Shown here: piece after piece, positions 21,710 through 33,987 of the stretch
Layout: each line of letters starts with the position of its first letter
Numbering within the stretch: position 1 is the first letter of the stretch
Origin: a virus
Strand: one strand, 5' to 3'
DNA: 36,163 bases
Virus record (IMG/VR): IMGVR_UViG_3300031857_000627
Location: 1-36,163 of that record
Notes under the pieces: generated by a model
The model's input: only the letters and a program-made list of their open reading frames with translations
Told to the model about the DNA's origin: nothing
Databases searched by the model: none
Position numbers and translations under genes: made by a program

Positions 21710-22465
21710 TTATGAAGCTGCTGCCCAAGGTGTAACAGTAATTGTTGCTGTAGAAGCAACAGATGCTGCGCCTGCAGCAGTGCTCTGTGTCTTGATTGTT
21801 CCAGCAACACCAACTACAGAAGCAGTTTGTGCGGTTAAGCTAACTGCAGTAGTTGCAGTTGTTGCCACACTAAAGGTGTTTGTATCGTTAGCAGTAACTG
21901 TGTATGTGCCGTTAAGGGCTGCGTCATCACCTGTAAAGGCTGAAACAGTTACCTTAGTACCTACACCGTAGGCTGCACCTGCACCTGAAGCTGTAAATAC
22001 TAGAGCTGTTGATCCAGATGTACGAGCTGCTGCAGTAACAGTCTTTGCAGCGTTTACAGCTGCTGATGCTGTTGTAATGTTAGCTGATTCATAACCAGCG
22101 TCACGAAGAGCATCAATAGCCAATGCTGTGGTTAGACCAAGAACACTTGGTACTGAGACATAAGCGGTTCCGCTTACGTATGCGCCATCGCCTGAAGCAT
22201 TTGCTGGGAATCCAGCATAAGCAGCCTCAGCTACTGCGTGGTTTGAAAGTGTTGGGTTCAAGCGTGAGCTTGGGTATACAGTATATCCGCTCCATCCGTA
22301 GTTCTGTGAAGCGTTTGCCGCTACAGCTACAGTTGAAGGTGCGGTTGTGTAATCTGCCGTTGTTGTACGTTCGTCGTTTGGTTGCATTGGGAAGTTGCCC
22401 CATACAAAGTCAACGAATACGTTACCAGCGGTATCAAGAAGATTACCGTTGTTATTTGTTGCCAT
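21710..22465 (-). CDS. Putative virion protein with an interrupted PASTA domain
   Basis: In this 251-aa protein residues 1-95 form a polar N-terminal region (VFVDFVWGNFPMQPNDER). Then VSVPSVLGLTTALAIDALRD, AGYESANIT (103-131) is the first half of a PASTA domain. An inserted beta-sandwich (about 140-215, GVGTKVTVSAFTGDDAALNG, TYTVTANDT) interrupts it, and GTIKTQSTAAGAASVASTAT then ITVT (222-244) looks like the second half. PASTA domains bind peptidoglycan fragments, so this may be a surface protein that touches the host wall. It has its own promoter (22516-22544), AAAGGT before the ATG, and a strong terminator, suggesting an abundantly made product. The inserted module resembles repeats in the 1385-aa fibre. 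Confidence 0.72.
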   Translation of the reverse strand: MATNNNGNLLDTAGNVFVDFVWGNFPMQPNDERTTTADYTTAPSTVAVAANASQNYGWSGYTVYPSSRLNPTLSNHAVAEAAYAGFPANASGDGAYVSGTAYVSVPSVLGLTTALAIDALRDAGYESANITTASAAVNAAKTVTAAARTSGSTALVFTASGAGAAYGVGTKVTVSAFTGDDAALNGTYTVTANDTNTFSVATTATTAVSLTAQTASVVGVAGTIKTQSTAAGAASVASTATITVTPWAAAS

Positions 22466-22705: not shown

Positions 22706-23448
22706 TACTTATAAGACTTTCTAGCCCACTTTAACTTCTTGTAGGCTCCGTAGAATGGAAACTCTTTAGGCCTGTACTCATCATGAGAGGCTGCGGTCCT
22801 TATTAGCTGTTGATCTCTTGGAAGTAGATCAATTTCACTTTTCCAGTTTAATCTTTGTATTGGTATTAATTGCAAAAATGGTGTGCCTTTAGGAACAACT
22901 CCACTATAACCCTTTTTAACAAAGAAGGGAATTCTTCCCGAAACGTGAGACATATCAGAATCTATTATGCCCGAAGTGCTAAGAAACGGCAGATCATACC
23001 TGTTCAGCGGTTGAGTGAATAAGACACTCCATCCATAAGGAGCCTCTACTCCCCAAATTGTATGCCAGTGAAAATGGGATTCATAATAACCCTCTGGATG
23101 ATGAAACCCGGACATAGGAGGCCGTATATCAACAAACTGTTTAAACGAGTCTTCTAAAACAATAATTGTGCATCCGTTATCAGTAGATATTACCTCTATG
23201 TCACAAGGTAAAGTAAATAGATAACCAGAAGTCATTGCATCTGCAAATGGTACGCATGACTTAAAAGTAACGGGAGTATTGAGACCTTTTCTTTTATAGT
23301 CTACAAGATTATCTTTTGTAACACCCTTATCTAAAACCTTTGCTTCTCTATACCATTCTGGCAATGTTCTACTAGCGGGTATGGGTCTTAGTGTTTCATC
23401 AGTTAAGCATTGTTCCGCATATGCTGTAAACTTAAGCGTAACATCCAT
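22705..23448 (-). CDS. DUF6065-like protein
   Basis: This 247-aa protein has a pattern I associate with DUF6065: an initial ADPLP-type region (PIPASRTLPEWYREAK), a basic middle with a C at VTFKSCVPFADAMTSGY, a central GWSVLFTQPLNRYDLPFLST segment, an acidic GIIDSDM turn, and a C-terminal KGTPFLQLIPIQR strand. Members occur in marine phages and bacteria and often accompany 2-oxoglutarate oxygenases. Their biochemical role is not established; the fold is probably cupin-like, but this is inference. The gene is translationally coupled on both sides (TAATG), between a 54-aa gene and a prolyl-hydroxylase-like gene, which suggests a shared pathway. Confidence 0.55.
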   Translation of the reverse strand: MDVTLKFTAYAEQCLTDETLRPIPASRTLPEWYREAKVLDKGVTKDNLVDYKRKGLNTPVTFKSCVPFADAMTSGYLFTLPCDIEVISTDNGCTIIVLEDSFKQFVDIRPPMSGFHHPEGYYESHFHWHTIWGVEAPYGWSVLFTQPLNRYDLPFLSTSGIIDSDMSHVSGRIPFFVKKGYSGVVPKGTPFLQLIPIQRLNWKSEIDLLPRDQQLIRTAASHDEYRPKEFPFYGAYKKLKWARKSYK

Positions 23449-24089
23449 TAGTAGTCTTTTCGACGCAGCTTACCGCTAGTCTGTTGAAACCTGTCGGTCC
23501 AGTCAAACATAGTAACAGCTGAGTATTTAACCCCACTAGTAACTGGCATAGCTTGGTGTCTATATACATAATTTGATGGAAATAAGAAATGGTCTCCTCT
23601 TTCAGGTTTAACCTTTAGGTCAAACTCTTTAAACCATAGTTCTCCGCCTTCATAATCATCGTTTAAATATAAAACGGAAGACAGTACACAAGTAAATGTA
23701 GGACCGTGGTCAGGGTGAGTTTCAAACCACTGGCCTTCTCCGTACCTAATAAAGTTAATTACCTGCTGCCACTGACAATTAATATCGTGTAGCGGCTCAT
23801 AATGAGCTTTGCATTTATGAATAATATCGTTTGTAATATTGTAGATTTCGGCTATATCTTTGTTTTTCGAGTTAGCGGGCCATACATCAAGTTTTCCTAC
23901 TTTAAAGTCAACACAGTTTCTAATGTCATGTCGCTCTTGCTGATCTCCTACTTTTGCGGGAGACCACTGTCTAAAGTTAGTTTCAACCGACAGAGCGTCT
24001 TCTAGCATTTTTGGTAGGTCTATATCTTCAGGTATAGTGTTTTTATATAAGTAGATACCTGTAGCTAACTTTTCAAATTCGTATTCCAT
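23448..24089 (-). CDS. 2-oxoglutarate/Fe(II) oxygenase, prolyl-4-hydroxylase type
   Basis: This 213-aa enzyme has the double-stranded beta-helix metal triad: H125-x-D127 in ETHPDHG and H178 in YVYRHQ, with basic K188 (TSGVKYS) to hold 2-oxoglutarate. The strand YLNDDYEGGELWF between them is typical of the P4H family. Such enzymes hydroxylate proline or other side chains in proteins or small molecules. It is coupled by TAATG to the DUF6065-like gene and lies just after the PASTA-Hint gene, whose Pro-Thr repeats could be a substrate. It is a paralogue of the gene at 26575-27186, sharing NDDYEGGE. Confidence 0.88.
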   Translation of the reverse strand: MEYEFEKLATGIYLYKNTIPEDIDLPKMLEDALSVETNFRQWSPAKVGDQQERHDIRNCVDFKVGKLDVWPANSKNKDIAEIYNITNDIIHKCKAHYEPLHDINCQWQQVINFIRYGEGQWFETHPDHGPTFTCVLSSVLYLNDDYEGGELWFKEFDLKVKPERGDHFLFPSNYVYRHQAMPVTSGVKYSAVTMFDWTDRFQQTSGKLRRKDY

Positions 24090-24121: not shown

Positions 24122-25201
24122 TTACTTATTGTGCGATAGCATTGCCTCAGTAAAGTATATATCATAGGGTTCAACTCCAATATCATACACAGTAACACCG
24201 TCTTTATGGTGCTCTCTGGTTATGTCTTGTATTTGAACGAACTCTGTCACTGGACCAGCAAACTGCTTTAAGACTAACACTTTATCTGTTTCTTTTGCAA
24301 ATTGAGCTTTAGTAAACTCGTATTCCCCGTTACGCTCTACTAATATAATGTGATCAAACGTATAGGATTCGCCGTTAATTACAACTAAATCAGTTACCTC
24401 AGACTTAGTGATTCTGGTTACCGCTGTTGTTGTAAGTTCTTTTATAGTAAAAGTTCCGCTTAACCAATAATAAACATTTACCTTTTCTTCGCTTGGATCA
24501 ATTTCTTCTACGTTAAGTGACAACAAGTTGTCGCCAATAGACAAATTAGATGCCTCTACAAGACCTTTAGTAGTGTGTATTTTGGTGTTGCCAAGTACGC
24601 AGGTCATTCCGTATCCGCCACCTCCGTAAGGATTGTAAAAGAAAGAAGGAGCTTCATATGGTGGGGGTGGTGACACATAGGCGTACCCAATTAAGCCAGT
24701 TCCATATGGAATGTAATAACCGGGATAGAAAGAAGGAGGAGGTGTCGGTGTAACGGTTGGTGTAACAGAGGGTTCAACAGTTGGTGTAACAGATGGTGTA
24801 ACAGTTGGTGTAACGGCAAACCCTGGGTTAAAGAAATAAGGACCAAACGATGGAGCTGATGGTGAGTACGTAATTGTGTTTAACGTAATTGTGTCACCCA
24901 TACTTGCTAGTTCGTCTATCCCGGGAACTTGAGATTGGACAAAGCCACCACTATATCCGTTATAGGTTGTATCAGATGAGTTAGTGTTTGATTTACTTAC
25001 TGAAAAGCCTAAGGCGGTTAAAGTAGTTTGAGCTGTGTCATAAGCTGTGCCAGTTACGTTTGGGACTCTTTTAGCCGCAATACGCCAAGAGCCATTTTCT
25101 TTTATATATACAATATCTGCTTTTGACCATGACCCAGCCACTTTAGTGTAACCTTTAGTTACATTACGCCAAATATCAGATAACTTATATTTTACAGACA
25201 C
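24122..25201 (-). CDS. PASTA, Pro/Thr-linker and Hint (intein-like) domain protein
   Basis: This 359-aa protein has four parts. Residues 1-45 form a Trp-rich module (YTKVAGSWSKADIVYIKENG). Residues 46-108 form a PASTA domain (VPNVTGTAYDTAQTTLTALG, then QSQVPG ... GDTITL). A Pro/Thr/Ser linker follows (130-155, repeats of PTVTPSVTPT) with a Tyr/Pro/Gly-rich stretch to 199. The last part is a Hint domain: block A begins C201 (CVLGNTKIHTTKG), block B has T281-x-x-H284 (TFDH), and the end is VYDIGVEPYDIYFTEAMLSH then N358-K359. The Cys1, TxxH and terminal His-Asn of self-processing Hint domains are all present. There is no C-extein beyond one Lys, so cleavage would free residues 1-200 as a thioester able to join to a nucleophile. 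Probably a virion surface protein; partner unknown. Confidence 0.85.
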   Translation of the reverse strand: MSVKYKLSDIWRNVTKGYTKVAGSWSKADIVYIKENGSWRIAAKRVPNVTGTAYDTAQTTLTALGFSVSKSNTNSSDTTYNGYSGGFVQSQVPGIDELASMGDTITLNTITYSPSAPSFGPYFFNPGFAVTPTVTPSVTPTVEPSVTPTVTPTPPPSFYPGYYIPYGTGLIGYAYVSPPPPYEAPSFFYNPYGGGGYGMTCVLGNTKIHTTKGLVEASNLSIGDNLLSLNVEEIDPSEEKVNVYYWLSGTFTIKELTTTAVTRITKSEVTDLVVINGESYTFDHIILVERNGEYEFTKAQFAKETDKVLVLKQFAGPVTEFVQIQDITREHHKDGVTVYDIGVEPYDIYFTEAMLSHNK

Positions 25202-25216
25202 TAAAACTCCTAGAAG

Positions 25217-25345
25217 TTATACGTACTTAAACCAGATGTCTCCATCAATGCCATTTGTTGAAAGTGGGTCTAACGTAGAAAAAGTGATGTTTTGACGACC
25301 TTCGTTGTTCACTCCACTTATAACAGGACCGGTAACGTTTATCAC
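25217..25345 (-). CDS. Small putative fibre protein
   Basis: This 42-aa protein (MINVTGPVISGVNNEGRQNI ... NGIDGDIWFKYV) starts with GTG, sharing a base with the TAG stop of the upstream 110-aa gene (TAGTG). The ending GDIWFKYV resembles the Trp-aromatic modules found on phage collagen-like fibres. It probably belongs to the virion surface set with its neighbours. Confidence 0.6.
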   Translation of the reverse strand: MINVTGPVISGVNNEGRQNITFSTLDPLSTNGIDGDIWFKYV

Positions 25346-25677
25346 TACGCTACCTCAACTCCAGAAACAATGATGTTTAATGCGCTAGCGGTTCCCGCTT
25401 TAGCAACAAGAAAGTCTCCTATTTCTAAGACTTGACTGCATTTAAATGTAAGGGTTGAGTACCCAGACAGAGTAAGGGAACAAAGAATCTCATTACTTTG
25501 TGACGCAGTTCCTGCTGCAGGAACTAGGTTTACAGTAACAGTAGCTGCTGTAGCTGTTGTATTAGCTATTAGTATTTCTTTAATTACAGCTTTAACACCA
25601 GTTGCGGTGTAAATGGTTGAGTTTGAAGTGCCAAGCTGGGTTATTGAACCCAATCGTTTAGGGGTATAGACTGCCAT
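25345..25677 (-). CDS. Small beta-rich virion-type protein
   Basis: This 110-aa protein (MAVYTPKRLGSITQLGTSNS) is almost all Thr/Ala/Val-rich beta strands (ILIANTTATAATVTVNLVPA; VLEIGDFLVAKAGTASALNI), with no signal or membrane segment. It resembles small fibre- or capsid-decorating proteins common in aquatic phages, and resembles the 115-aa protein at 8041-8388 in style. Its stop overlaps the start of the 42-aa gene, placing it in the PASTA-Hint operon. Confidence 0.68.
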   Translation of the reverse strand: MAVYTPKRLGSITQLGTSNSTIYTATGVKAVIKEILIANTTATAATVTVNLVPAAGTASQSNEILCSLTLSGYSTLTFKCSQVLEIGDFLVAKAGTASALNIIVSGVEVA

Positions 25678-25717: not shown

Positions 25718-25894
25718 CTATCTATAGCCGTGCCAACCACGCCCAGGGTTCATATAAGATTTAACACTTGGACGTTCTTCTTTATTTATAAATATACGAC
25801 GTATGCCAAATCTAGAGTCTTTTATATTGAGTAGTTTGTGTTGGGCAAGGCCTTTAAACTCTTTAAGCCTACTCAAACGCTCCACCTGTTCCAT
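25718..25894 (-). CDS. Small basic protein, unknown function
   Basis: This 58-aa protein was found by translating the gap after the 67-aa gene: MEQVERLSRLKEFKGLAQHK ... NPGRGWHGYR. It is basic and helical at first. The ATG overlaps the end of the upstream gene by 22 bases; no strong ribosome site is visible, so a shorter start (GTG at 25885 or TTG at 25876) is possible. Confidence 0.5.
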   Translation of the reverse strand: MEQVERLSRLKEFKGLAQHKLLNIKDSRFGIRRIFINKEERPSVKSYMNPGRGWHGYR

Positions 25895-26076
25895 TGAATG
25901 GTTTCAGTCTTAACCCCAACAACAGCCCCTTTTGCCCTAGTAACGGCATCACGAAACTGTCTAGGGTTCATTTTCTTTTCTTGAGCACGCATTTGTGCTA
26001 AAGATTGAGTAGCGTAATCCTCTTTAAGACTTAGGTTTCTTTTGAGTTGACGCTTGTTGCCAGGTCTTTTTGCCAC
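25873..26076 (-). CDS. Small basic protein, unknown function
   Basis: This 67-aa protein (GTG start, MAKRPGNKRQLKRNLSLKED; later RDAVTRAKGAVVGVKTETIQ) is highly basic and could bind nucleic acid. It overlaps the preceding gene by 53 bases, a long overlap for this genome, which lowers confidence in the exact start. No family is recognised. Confidence 0.55.
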   Translation of the reverse strand: MAKRPGNKRQLKRNLSLKEDYATQSLAQMRAQEKKMNPRQFRDAVTRAKGAVVGVKTETIQWNRWSV

Positions 26077-26530
26077 TACCTTCAGCCTTCTGTTTAGGTT
26101 CTTTAGGTTCTGAGTACTTTACAGCCCCTAAAGTTGTTTTAATCTCGCTAATACCTTGACCCTTTAAAGATCCAGCAGAGTTTACCATTGCCTCATGGGA
26201 CTTTATATTAGAACGAAGTTTAGTGCGTTCAGCATGAGCCGTTTCTTTCTTCTTTAGATTTGAAGAGTGCTCAGCTCCTTTTTGTCTTCTATTTTCCTTG
26301 AGCTCTTCCATTTTGTTAGAGACCCAAGCTGAGTGAAGCTCACTTTGTTGATGGTGCTCGTGCTCAGCTCTCATAAGATTTAACTTGTTTTGGTAGTCTT
26401 GCTCTGACATTCCTGAACTTCCTAGTGTCTTTTTTGCTAAAGCACCAAGAGCTACGGCTGCTATCTTTTTACGCATGCCACCGCTCCCTCCAGTATGATG
26501 GGATTTACTAATATGTTCAAAAGTAGGCAT
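26024..26530 (-). CDS. Charged helical protein, unknown function
   Basis: This 168-aa protein has a Gly/Ser-rich N-terminus with a short Ala-rich hydrophobic helix (KKIAAVALGALAKKTLG), then a long charged helix rich in His, Glu, Lys and Gln (LMRAEHEHHQQSELHSAWVS) and a Lys-rich tail. The architecture suggests an oligomeric virion or scaffold-like accessory protein, but no family is recognised. It is the first gene upstream of the 67- and 58-aa genes in this operon. Confidence 0.65.
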   Translation of the reverse strand: MPTFEHISKSHHTGGSGGMRKKIAAVALGALAKKTLGSSGMSEQDYQNKLNLMRAEHEHHQQSELHSAWVSNKMEELKENRRQKGAEHSSNLKKKETAHAERTKLRSNIKSHEAMVNSAGSLKGQGISEIKTTLGAVKYSEPKEPKQKAEGSGKKTWQQASTQKKPKS

Positions 26531-28834: not shown

Positions 28835-29005
28835 TTATTCGTCTTTTGGATTTCGCAAAGGGTAAGTAACTACCCAAGCAAGAAATGTTCCAACAGTGGC
28901 CCAACCTACTACGGACTTAGCGCTTCCATCAAGCACAATCCAAGCAATAAACATGCCTAGCAGGGTCCATAGCTGGTCTGCCATGTCTCTAAATAGGTTC
29001 TTCAA
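28835..29005 (-). CDS. Small two-helix membrane protein, holin-like
   Basis: This 56-aa protein (MKNLFRDMADQLWTLLGMFI; later VGWATVGTFLAWVVTYPLRN) has two hydrophobic segments separated by a short polar turn, and a charged end, a minimal holin shape. Translation may begin at TTG (29005), which overlaps the stop of the 652-aa gene (TTGA) with a GGAG-rich stretch before it, or at ATG (28984), giving 49 residues. Confidence 0.65.
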   Translation of the reverse strand: MKNLFRDMADQLWTLLGMFIAWIVLDGSAKSVVGWATVGTFLAWVVTYPLRNPKDE

Positions 29006-30960
29006 GGTTTCCTTCTCCTCACACCTTTACTATCTCCTGAAGGGGCTCCCCCTCCAGAACTTCCTCCTCCTGTAGGTGCGCTACCTCCAGTAGCAATACC
29101 TACAGCGTTTAGAGCAGCACCACTTGCAATAATTGCTGCTACTACCATCTTTTCAGCTTCTTCACGTTCTTGTGGGCTCATATCAGCACCTATACTTCCA
29201 AGTGCTTGTAAGGCTTCGCCCGGATCGCTAAATATTGCACCGACTAGTTCCGCAGGGTTTTCCAATAGCAAAAGAGCTGCAGCAACGTCTGCTGTAATTA
29301 TAACTTGATTACCGTTTTCATCCTGCCTAACCTCAACAGGCGTACTTGGTGGAAGATCTGAGTATTCAAGTCCCGCTTCAGCAATTGCTTCAGCAGTAAC
29401 GGCTTCACCATCTGCCGCTTCAATAAGCGCATCAGCAATTACTTCTTTTTCTTCACTAGTAAGTTCACCATCCGCTAACGCTTCTTCAACGGCTTCATCA
29501 ACAGCCTCTTCTGGTGTGGTAGGCTCTGAGGATGGTTCTTCTGACTGACTTTCTTGCTCTTGGTTGTCTGACTCTTGCTGCTCTTCTTCTCCTGAGGTTT
29601 GTTCCTCTTCAGAAGTCTGATCCTCTGTTGCTTCGTCTGTTTGTTCGGAGTCTTCCTGTTGTGGTTGGTCTTCTGTGGGTTCTGATGGCTCTTCTGTATC
29701 AGTTTCAGTAGGAGTTTCTGGCTCAGTAGGTGCATCTGGCGTTACAGGATCAAACGTAATGTTTGAATAAGAAGGTGCTGGAGCTGGTATAGCTCTTGCT
29801 TCTTCTATAACTGTTTTTGCAGATTCAACAGCAGCAACGGCTAACTCAACTTTGCTATCCATTACAACAATAGCAGCATCTAAAGCGCTTTCAGCATTTG
29901 TTAAGTTTGTTTGAGCTGTAACTAAAGTGTTTTGTGCAACTGTTACTATCCCTTGTTGGGTATTAATTGCTTGTTGTTTATTAGATGATGTATAAACTGT
30001 TTGTTGTTCCAGAACGCCGTCCTGTCTAACACCTGTTCTTGGGCCACCATATACGTTTAGATTTCCATCAATGGTTCCAGTACCAGTCCATTCACCTGTA
30101 CTTGGGTTTACTGTCATATCCCATGAGATATAAGTAAGGGGACCATTGTTGTCTCCAAACCTATGAAGAGTCCAGTCAATACCTAAAGTGGTTTCGGTTG
30201 TAGTAACAACAACGGAAGCACCAGTTCCTGCGCTCATGTAGTCAGATTGAAATATGTAAATTCCATCTTGAGTTTGATTAGGCCAATCCCACCAAGTCCA
30301 ATCAGGACCGCCAAATGAGATAGTTGCTTTAGAGCTTACGTATATTTGACTTGCAGAGCCTTGGCCTTCAAAAACAGTATCTCCCATTTTAATGTCAAAT
30401 GGGGTTTCAATCTTGGTTGCAGCATCCCACATTGCGGGAAGAGTAGTTGTTGTTACTGTTGGAGTTTCTGGTGCAACTGGGGCAACATACCCATCAGTTG
30501 TATAGTTCATGCTTCCTAATGGAGCGTTTTGAATATCAGTTAATTCTTGTTGTTCTGCGGTTAGTGTTGTCTGAGCAACAACAACAATTGCTTCTTTATC
30601 TTCAACTACTGCAATAGCGTCGTTTACATCTTCAATAGCAACTTCAGCCTCTGTAATAGCAACACTAGCTGTGCTAATTGCCTCTTGCACTTTTGGTTCG
30701 GAAGAGACAGCTTCAGAAGAAGGGATTACAACAGTAGTTAATTCGGTAGATGTAGCGGTTAGGGTTTCCTGTGCAGCAGTTACAGCTTGCTCTGGAGTGA
30801 CGGGTTGTACCTGTACTTGTTCTGAGCTAGAAGGTACCTCGTCTGCATAAGAATAAGACATGCCAAAGACTAGGAATAGAGTAACTATTCCTCCACATAA
30901 TAAGAGTCGTCCAGTATTTATTAAGCCAGATAATGCTGCGAGTAACCGCAGTGCTGTCAA
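29002..30960 (-). CDS. Large exported acidic protein with unknown central domain
   Basis: This 652-aa protein begins with a signal peptide (basic start, hydrophobic core to about residue 33, cleavage near SYA-DEV at 39). It then has a Glu/Ala/Thr-rich helical part (AVTAAQETLTATSTELTTVV), a central beta-rich domain (about 170-320, WTWWDWPNQTQDGIYIFQSD ... GPLTYISWDMTVNPSTGEWT), another coiled-coil segment, a very acidic Glu/Gln/Ser/Pro tract (about 415-505) and an Ala-rich C-terminal helix region ending Gly-rich with RRRKP. The domain order suggests a secreted or surface-exposed host-modifying protein, or a virion surface protein. Low complexity makes homology hard to judge. It is the longest non-virion-type gene here. 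Confidence 0.8.
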   Translation of the reverse strand: MTALRLLAALSGLINTGRLLLCGGIVTLFLVFGMSYSYADEVPSSSEQVQVQPVTPEQAVTAAQETLTATSTELTTVVIPSSEAVSSEPKVQEAISTASVAITEAEVAIEDVNDAIAVVEDKEAIVVVAQTTLTAEQQELTDIQNAPLGSMNYTTDGYVAPVAPETPTVTTTTLPAMWDAATKIETPFDIKMGDTVFEGQGSASQIYVSSKATISFGGPDWTWWDWPNQTQDGIYIFQSDYMSAGTGASVVVTTTETTLGIDWTLHRFGDNNGPLTYISWDMTVNPSTGEWTGTGTIDGNLNVYGGPRTGVRQDGVLEQQTVYTSSNKQQAINTQQGIVTVAQNTLVTAQTNLTNAESALDAAIVVMDSKVELAVAAVESAKTVIEEARAIPAPAPSYSNITFDPVTPDAPTEPETPTETDTEEPSEPTEDQPQQEDSEQTDEATEDQTSEEEQTSGEEEQQESDNQEQESQSEEPSSEPTTPEEAVDEAVEEALADGELTSEEKEVIADALIEAADGEAVTAEAIAEAGLEYSDLPPSTPVEVRQDENGNQVIITADVAAALLLLENPAELVGAIFSDPGEALQALGSIGADMSPQEREEAEKMVVAAIIASGAALNAVGIATGGSAPTGGGSSGGGAPSGDSKGVRRRKP

Positions 30961-33459: not shown

Positions 33460-33596
33460 TATTTAGAAGCTTTCTTAGCAGATGGAGGCCAGGTATCAAG
33501 AACTTCTCTTATATTTCCATCTTTACCTAAACGAACTATTTTCTTATCTTTAATCTGAATAGGGTTAAATCCATCGTGCCGTATGCGCTTAGACAT
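33459..33596 (-). CDS. Small basic protein, unknown function
   Basis: This 45-aa protein (MSKRIRHDGFNPIQIKDKKI ... WPPSAKKASK) was found by direct translation; it is basic. It overlaps the SpeD gene by 8 bases at its start and the 65-aa gene by one base at its stop. No family recognised. Confidence 0.6.
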   Translation of the reverse strand: MSKRIRHDGFNPIQIKDKKIVRLGKDGNIREVLDTWPPSAKKASK

Positions 33597-33987
33597 TTAT
33601 TACACCATCCTCACTAGAAGCTTCTTTAACAAAACCTTTTTCTCTATCAAATAGTACATAGTCCATATCAACTACATTAAAGGTCTTATAGAACATTTCT
33701 ATTACTGCCTCTAAGTCTAGCTTGCCACAGGTATACAGATCAAACTGAATTAACCCAGGGTCTTCTTCATCCCAGATATGAAATGCAATATGACTGGTTT
33801 CTATCATTACGATAGCTGTTAATCCACGATTACCTGGTTTGTCTACATAGGAAGCAAATGGGCCTTTAATAATCTTCATATCAATTGCTTCTACAAGACG
33901 TGTTAGGAAATCAATTCCTTCTTCTTCAGAGCTAAAAGTGTTTTTTATTCTAGCGTTAACTAGTAGGTGCTTATGATAAAGACTCAT
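33589..33987 (-). CDS. speD: S-adenosylmethionine decarboxylase (SpeD) family protein
   Basis: This 132-aa protein matches prokaryotic SpeD in size and motif: ETSHIAFHIWDE ... DLYTCGKL. Aligned on the Thermotoga enzyme, S65 would become the pyruvoyl group, H70 aids processing and C87 is the catalytic acid. The residue before the processed Ser is Thr (T64) rather than the usual Glu. SpeD gives decarboxylated AdoMet for spermidine; some phage and bacterial homologues are now known to be arginine or ornithine decarboxylases instead, so the substrate is uncertain. The gene is in the small-gene array with ATGA coupling to the 59-aa gene upstream. No aminopropyltransferase is seen in the window. 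Confidence 0.85.
   Translation of the reverse strand: MSLYHKHLLVNARIKNTFSSEEEGIDFLTRLVEAIDMKIIKGPFASYVDKPGNRGLTAIVMIETSHIAFHIWDEEDPGLIQFDLYTCGKLDLEAVIEMFYKTFNVVDMDYVLFDREKGFVKEASSEDGVINV

Follow-up and report, generated by a model that had tools for sequence, protein, structure and literature searches.

Freshwater phage proteins that end in a Hint domain probably cut themselves and perhaps attach themselves

Hint domains are best known from self-splicing parasites, from the hedgehog cholesterol transferase, and from toxin-release domains, and a phage gene whose product carries a PASTA domain and ends in a Hint domain raises the question of what such a domain is doing there. One such gene lies in the window, by which we mean the whole 36,163-nucleotide stretch analysed here (IMG/VR virus record IMGVR_UViG_3300031857_000627), a virus record with terminase, portal, and major head genes (PHROG). 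We consider it reasonably probable, from sequence comparison, that the product of this gene is an accessory protein for adsorption, carried on the virion of a freshwater actinophage, with a BIL-type Hint that would process itself at its N-terminal junction. More generally, phage proteins with a C-terminal Hint probably cut themselves and perhaps attach themselves; self-cutting seems probable because dozens of related viruses have the same design and keep the cutting residues.

A PASTA head, a stalk, and a Hint domain in one gene

The sequence-only reading had placed the open reading frame at positions 24122-25201, which are the right coordinates, with a correction to be made for strand: the gene runs on the minus strand, 25201..24122, starts with GTG, and encodes 359 amino acids and a stop in the order N-terminal module, PASTA, Pro/Thr stalk, Hint, and a single Lys. 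Read on the plus strand, the same stretch contains 21 stops, and that reading was ruled out. The N-terminal module (residues 1-44; 25070..25201, minus strand, as for all features of this gene) has YxKV.GSW / KENGSWR repeats seen in the sequence and weak matches to PHROG 36019 and 25859, and its type is also present in three proteins from the same genomic slot of other contigs (L192, L096, and L097). No signal peptide is evident by eye at the N-terminus. Residues 45-108 (24878..25069) match the Pfam PASTA domain PF03793 with an E-value of 7.7e-9 and 35.8 bits, above the curated cut-off of 23.2, and so the PASTA unit that had been proposed stands; it is retained by three relatives, L012, L134, and L135. 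Peptidoglycan binding is not universal among PASTA domains. The following stalk (residues 113-200; 24602..24865) is of low complexity, rich in Pro, Thr, Gly, and Tyr, and includes the TPTVTPSVTPTVEPSVTPTVTPTPPP repeats (residues 131-156; 24734..24811) of the Pro/Thr linker already noted in the sequence-only reading. At the amino-acid level it is the fastest-evolving part of the protein (dN 0.38 against L012).

The Hint domain occupies residues 201-358 (24128..24601) and was identified by Pfam, PHROG, profile comparison, AlphaFold2, and structural superposition. PF14890 (Intein_splicing) matches residues 203-358 with an E-value of 7e-4 (6.6e-5 with the domain alone), which is under the Pfam cut-off, and PHROG 38766, "virion structural protein", matches residues 200-358 with an E-value of 7.8e-8. 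The set of motif residues is more than chance, because L012, L134, and L135 (50-66% identity) keep the Hint motifs, that is Cys1, block B Ser/Thr-x-x-His, and the HNK-stop ending, and dN/dS is low, with dN ~0.24 and dS ~2 for the Hint domain against the orthologue L012. An AlphaFold2 model built from 63 relatives has a mean pLDDT of 92.8 and a pTM of 0.87, and supersedes an earlier model from 21 sequences (pLDDT 73). Numbered along the modelled piece, residues 1-163 superpose on the BIL2 structure 6y75 (Z 19.0; rmsd 1.6 across 135 residues), residues 2-162 on the BIL structure 2lwy (Z 18.3), and residues 5-163 on hedgehog 1at0 (Z 17.7). Many inteins also superpose, with Z from 14 to 19 across inteins, BIL, and hedgehog; these values lie close together, and 6y75 is at the top but tied within 1 with the next. 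Against PDB sequences, the family profile has 2lwy as its first match (E 1e-10), and the alignment places position 1, the block B TxxH, and the C-terminal H-N/D all in register. Modelling had been set beforehand as a check on the sequence-only reading's complete Hint domain, an active site that failed to form being the refuting outcome; as far as the fold goes, the model does not show that outcome, and in it the window's domain is a complete Hint, both termini included. The fold, C201 at position 1, and the block B TxxH are those of the Hint superfamily.

The active-site residues are where the sequence-only reading had put them: Cys201, the putative position 1 nucleophile (24599..24601), T281-F-D-H284 at block B (24350..24361), and H357-N358-K359 (24125..24133), the block G His-Asn pair with one trailing residue before the stop. 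Alignment adds Asp347 (24161..24163), at the position taken by the block F His in the solved inteins and BIL aligned with it. As a separate observation, open reading frames that end one residue after the Hint Asn always end in Lys; this HNK-stop set comprises the window (24125-24127), L012, L065, L085, L134, and L135, which form six clusters at 70% identity.

A family of C-terminal Hint proteins beside tail-fibre genes

The contigs compared are metagenomic. The first relatives found were a near-identical contig, L002, and then the orthologue L012 at 64% identity, and the surroundings of the related terminase added Hint proteins that occupy the same genomic slot and have very dissimilar N-termini. 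When viral contigs were scanned with one protein at a time, only contigs of the same population were recovered; a profile scan of the contigs gave 159 confirmed loci, the best 80 of which were carried forward. Among these best 80 of 159 loci, freshwater phage contigs encode at least 61 different proteins with a C-terminal Hint, in 26 clusters at 70% identity, and the alignment consists of 61 freshwater and 20 jumbo-phage Hint sequences after removal of duplicates and incomplete copies. The Hint is C-terminal in every aligned member. N-terminal PASTA was found in 26 of the 53 family proteins scanned and fn3 in 20 of them, and the stalk repeats differ by lineage (NPGFNPGF, HYAGFYHGF, PFGFTPFGF, PVIINEPVIINEP). 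Uncultured Caudovirales entries in UniProt/BFVD match the Hint model with TM 0.83-0.88, including A0A6J5NY54 (PASTA_pknB), A0A6J5MFV5 (fn3), and A0A6J7WKC1 (Hint). The 104-kb phage contig of L137 (G003) has two Hint matches in separate frames (42422-42898 and 78187-78642).

A tblastn search of 50,697 phage records with the whole protein and one Ser1 relative returned enterobacterial jumbo phages only, and thus no relative in a cultured actinophage; PF14890 has no match in Streptomyces phage GiJojo, whose portal is related. Two scans of bacterial genome contigs found no relative, which does not establish absence from bacteria because the scan patterns were narrow.

L002 belongs to the same population and is 99.9% identical to the window, yet its Hint differs. 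Inside the Hint, 39 nt copied in frame from the gene's N-terminal region (L002:6756-6804 against window 24436-24290 and 25106-25058) take the place of 147 nt, so that the TxxH segment is lost, with microhomology of 10 nt and 4 nt at the joins. This looks like a mis-assembly or assembly chimera, because other small deletions accompany the rearrangement; it could also be a real variant. The same pair of contigs differs at window 25873-26530, where two overlapping open reading frames (168 and 67 amino acids) correspond to a single one of 218 amino acids in L002, an indel in one of the two; L012 likewise has two overlapping frames at the counterpart.

The portal protein of the window shares 58-60% identity with its counterparts in the Streptomyces phages GiJojo and BRock, and the window carries a WhiB gene (E 8e-12), as do 7 of the 15 relatives' contigs checked. 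WhiB is an actinophage marker (PMC6802176, PMC10202952). Together, the portal likeness and WhiB make an actinobacterial host probable, and we infer that this host probably lives in fresh water and has an exposed wall.

A tail-fibre-like gene directly precedes the Hint gene in 43 of 51 relatives, and six of seven scanned genes upstream of Hint genes have the Mtd_N fibre domain (Pfam). In the window's clade the adjacent upstream gene encodes a 110-aa protein of unknown function (25345..25677, minus strand; PHROG 1276/20100) and not an Mtd_N fibre, and L012, L134, and L135 have a homologue at about the same upstream distance. Downstream lies a 213-aa 2OG-Fe(II) oxygenase (Pfam; 23448..24089, minus strand), an order kept in the same three relatives; we regard this gene as context and not as part of the system. 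The sequence-only reading had left open a phage particle or a secreted protein. Since the relatives' genes are virion or tail-fibre-adjacent genes and no signal peptide is evident, a virion protein now appears the more likely and a secreted one the less likely.

Several other features of this neighbourhood were observed. From 4 to 9 kb upstream of terL, contigs L053-L131 have a hypervariable cargo slot, with tail-fibre genes on one side and head genes on the other, and phages that are otherwise alike differ there in which of Hint, glycosyltransferase-like, epimerase-like, and 2OG-oxygenase-like genes they carry. The window encodes a second structural-type protein at 21710-22465 (251 amino acids, VDFVWGNFPMQP, partial PASTA match), with homologues in the same place in most of the related contigs looked at. 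It also holds a tryptophan halogenase-like flavoprotein gene (579-2189; E 3.5e-101), two 2OG-Fe(II) oxygenases in a small phage contig (23448-24089 and 26575-27186), an S-adenosylmethionine decarboxylase gene (33589-33987; E 1.8e-13) that is a possible polyamine auxiliary metabolic gene, and a 652-aa frame (29002-30960) with a signal-like N-terminus, a long acidic Glu/Ser/Thr-rich middle, and no Pfam match.

What selection keeps, and what the domain may do

Among the 61 freshwater Hints, position 1 is Ser in 48 and Cys in 13 and nothing else, and the block B His and its Ser/Thr partner are present in all 61. The C-terminal pair varies among H-N, H-D, Y-D, and Y-N, with Asp for Asn in 43 of 61; across the Ser1 clade, Tyr and Asp replace H357 and/or N358. 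Only 1-38 residues follow the Hint in freshwater relatives. On a tree masked at positions 201, 281, 357, and 358 (150 aligned columns, total length 30.7), position 1 changed once, between Cys and Ser, and the block B His not at all, against 17 changes in the median column. His-Asn is kept in 13 of 13 Cys1 members and in none of the 48 Ser1 members, an association that is not independent evidence because it reflects one change in the tree. Asp stands at the block F His position in every aligned phage Hint. How constant E344 and D347 look is in part an effect of the search, one of whose patterns was EPYD[IVM][YF]F; D347 is also kept in L079, L085, and L104, which were found by synteny, and in the jumbo phages, with Glu or Asp at 344.

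It appears from these alignments that selection keeps a hedgehog-like chemistry at the N-terminal junction and not splicing, because position 1 and the His are constant, the Asn is mostly lost, and the tail is short. With 1-38 residues after the Hint, there is no C-extein worth splicing. The hedgehog comparison drawn in the sequence-only reading is thus strengthened: most relatives lack the C-terminal Asn that splicing requires, and the putative N-junction nucleophile and the block B His are always kept. The presence of Asp347 for the block F His, together with mostly Ser1, could mean slow or conditional chemistry.

On this reading, the PASTA head, of a peptidoglycan-binding type, would be displayed on the Pro/Thr stalk. 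Once the Hint has folded, C201, helped by T281 and H284, would turn the T200-C201 bond into a thioester, which water or another nucleophile could then resolve, so that residues 1-200 would separate from the Hint. The outcome would be either a cleaved mature protein or one joined to an acceptor in the virion. In the window's clade there may be a further side reaction, in which N358 cyclises and K359 is released, and most of the family would have lost it; A-type BIL behaviour, at both junctions, is possible in this clade because His-Asn is present with a Lys behind it.

Hydrolysis and transfer are both sub-cases of self-processing, and their likelihoods are parts of that of self-processing and not additional to it. 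On one hand, the Hint, at the C-terminus, may help the protein to fold or stay soluble and then, after stalk assembly, cut itself off by hydrolysis of the thioester with no transfer, much as the intramolecular chaperones of some tailspikes autocleave. This plain maturation cleavage is a tentative possibility, short of an even chance; it fits the C-terminal place of the Hint in every member, the very variable N-terminal parts, whose repetitive stalks may need help in assembly, the trimer-type fibres suggested by the collagen-like jumbo-phage versions, and the tail-fibre neighbourhood of the relatives. However, a hydrolytic chaperone has no need of an intein-type active site. The tailspike chaperones known so far have folds other than Hint. 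On the other hand, the 200-residue PASTA-stalk part could be joined via its C-terminus to a neighbouring virion protein by hedgehog/BIL-type transfer, with a Lys, Ser, Cys, or N-terminal amine as candidate acceptor, so that the binding head is anchored covalently. We consider this rather unlikely, since no partner gene is common to all members and no acceptor is indicated; Ser1 oxyesters, moreover, are weaker acyl donors. The conserved N-junction residues and the loss of the splice-specific Asn in most of the Ser1 clade are nevertheless in its favour. Transfer is also not far-fetched, because the BIL2 Hint, among the nearest structures, reportedly links its N-terminal neighbour to lysine through an isopeptide bond (PMC8616854), and aminolysis has been proposed as the route by which A-type BILs ligate (PMC4031507). 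Covalent attachment to wall material, which the sequence-only reading had raised, gains nothing from these results: no acceptor is indicated and simple self-cleavage fits equally. A more general form, in which adsorption proteins of a widespread freshwater actinophage family would use a hedgehog-like Hint to link a PASTA or fn3 head covalently, via the C-terminus of that head, to an acceptor borne either by the virion or by the surface of the host, strikes us as quite improbable, and to a like degree so does the acyl-transfer Hint for attachment or assembly that it would need, with Cys1 or Ser1, a block F Asp, and a dispensable C-terminal Asn.

Two further readings do without self-processing. 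The Hint could be catalytically silent, a beta-rich structural or binding domain with motif residues kept for folding, as might be suggested by Ser1 with Asp or Tyr at block G in most relatives, by Asp for the block F His throughout, and by the L002 variant without TxxH. Yet in a deep tree position 1 is only ever Cys or Ser, with a constant block B His, whereas in a domain that had lost catalysis at least position 1 should have become free to vary, and we therefore regard a silent domain as unlikely. That the Hint is a degraded or minimal intein, a splicing-element relic at the 3' end of the gene with no present role, is very improbable: H357-N358 and the PF14890 similarity speak for it, but it lacks a C-extein and a +1 nucleophile (K359 stands there), it is under purifying selection (dN 0.24, dS ~2), and the same architecture occurs in many lineages. 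An ordinary intein in an essential gene was ruled out, there being no C-extein and a Lys at +1. Self-processing at the N-terminal junction remains our preferred reading, and the window's ~40-kDa protein makes it directly testable.

If true, phage virion maturation or anchoring would be a natural use of acyl-shift chemistry. The interest lies in a recurring Hint that is always C-terminal, on proteins of wall- or receptor-binding type beside tail fibres, and an active Ser1/Asp-type Hint, if shown, would be a new protein ligation tool.

Comparison with known Hint systems

Searches of open-access literature returned no description of a PASTA-Hint protein or of a Hint family linked to tail fibres. 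Members are already in databases, as the jumbo-phage proteins of PHROG 38766 and as uncultured-phage UniProt entries named PASTA, fn3, or Hint. The names of the uncultured Caudovirales entries in UniProt/BFVD fit the same architectures, and these entries are annotated by domain name only. The PHROG 38766 proteins of Erwinia, Dickeya, and Yersinia jumbo phages (Alexandravirus, Rivsvirus) share the C-terminal Hint and the same motifs at ~22-32% identity, and are annotated as virion structural or tail-fibre proteins. They differ in having a collagen-like N-terminus, no PASTA, Gram-negative hosts, and a tail of ~10 residues after the Hint that starts HN-T/V.

The window's protein fits neither class 1 inteins nor Pretoxin HINT (PT-HINT) proteins: the +1 residue is Lys359, followed by a stop with no C-extein, and there is no toxin domain, only K359 after the Hint. 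Closer is the A-type BIL of Clostridium thermocellum (2lwy), the best PDB sequence match (E 1e-10; fold Z 18.3), which likewise has Cys1, the block B His, and a C-terminal His-Asn without a +1 nucleophile. A-type BILs are defined by this C-terminal His-Asn without a +1 nucleophile, and both of their junctions cleave (PMC4031507); H357-N358-K359 agrees with the C-terminal part of that definition. The window's Hint is unlike them in its block F Asp, its extreme C-terminal place with one residue after the Asn, and its PASTA head, and most of the phage relatives depart further with Ser1 and no Asn. The Tetrahymena BUBL BIL2 (6y75, 6tmm) is the top structural match (Z 19.0), but it has ubiquitin-like domains on both sides and is Zn-activated, whereas the window's Hint gives no sign of Zn or of transfer. 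Hedgehog (1at0; Z 17.7) shares the arrangement of a C-terminal Hint on an N-terminal binding part, with TxxH; the window's frame differs from it in having no sterol recognition region, only one residue after the Hint, and no sign of cholesterol, and the 1-38 residues after the relatives' Hints likewise set them apart from Hog proteins. In one respect the phage family as a whole is hedgehog-like, in that the Asn is mostly not kept, and the window's member still carries His-Asn.
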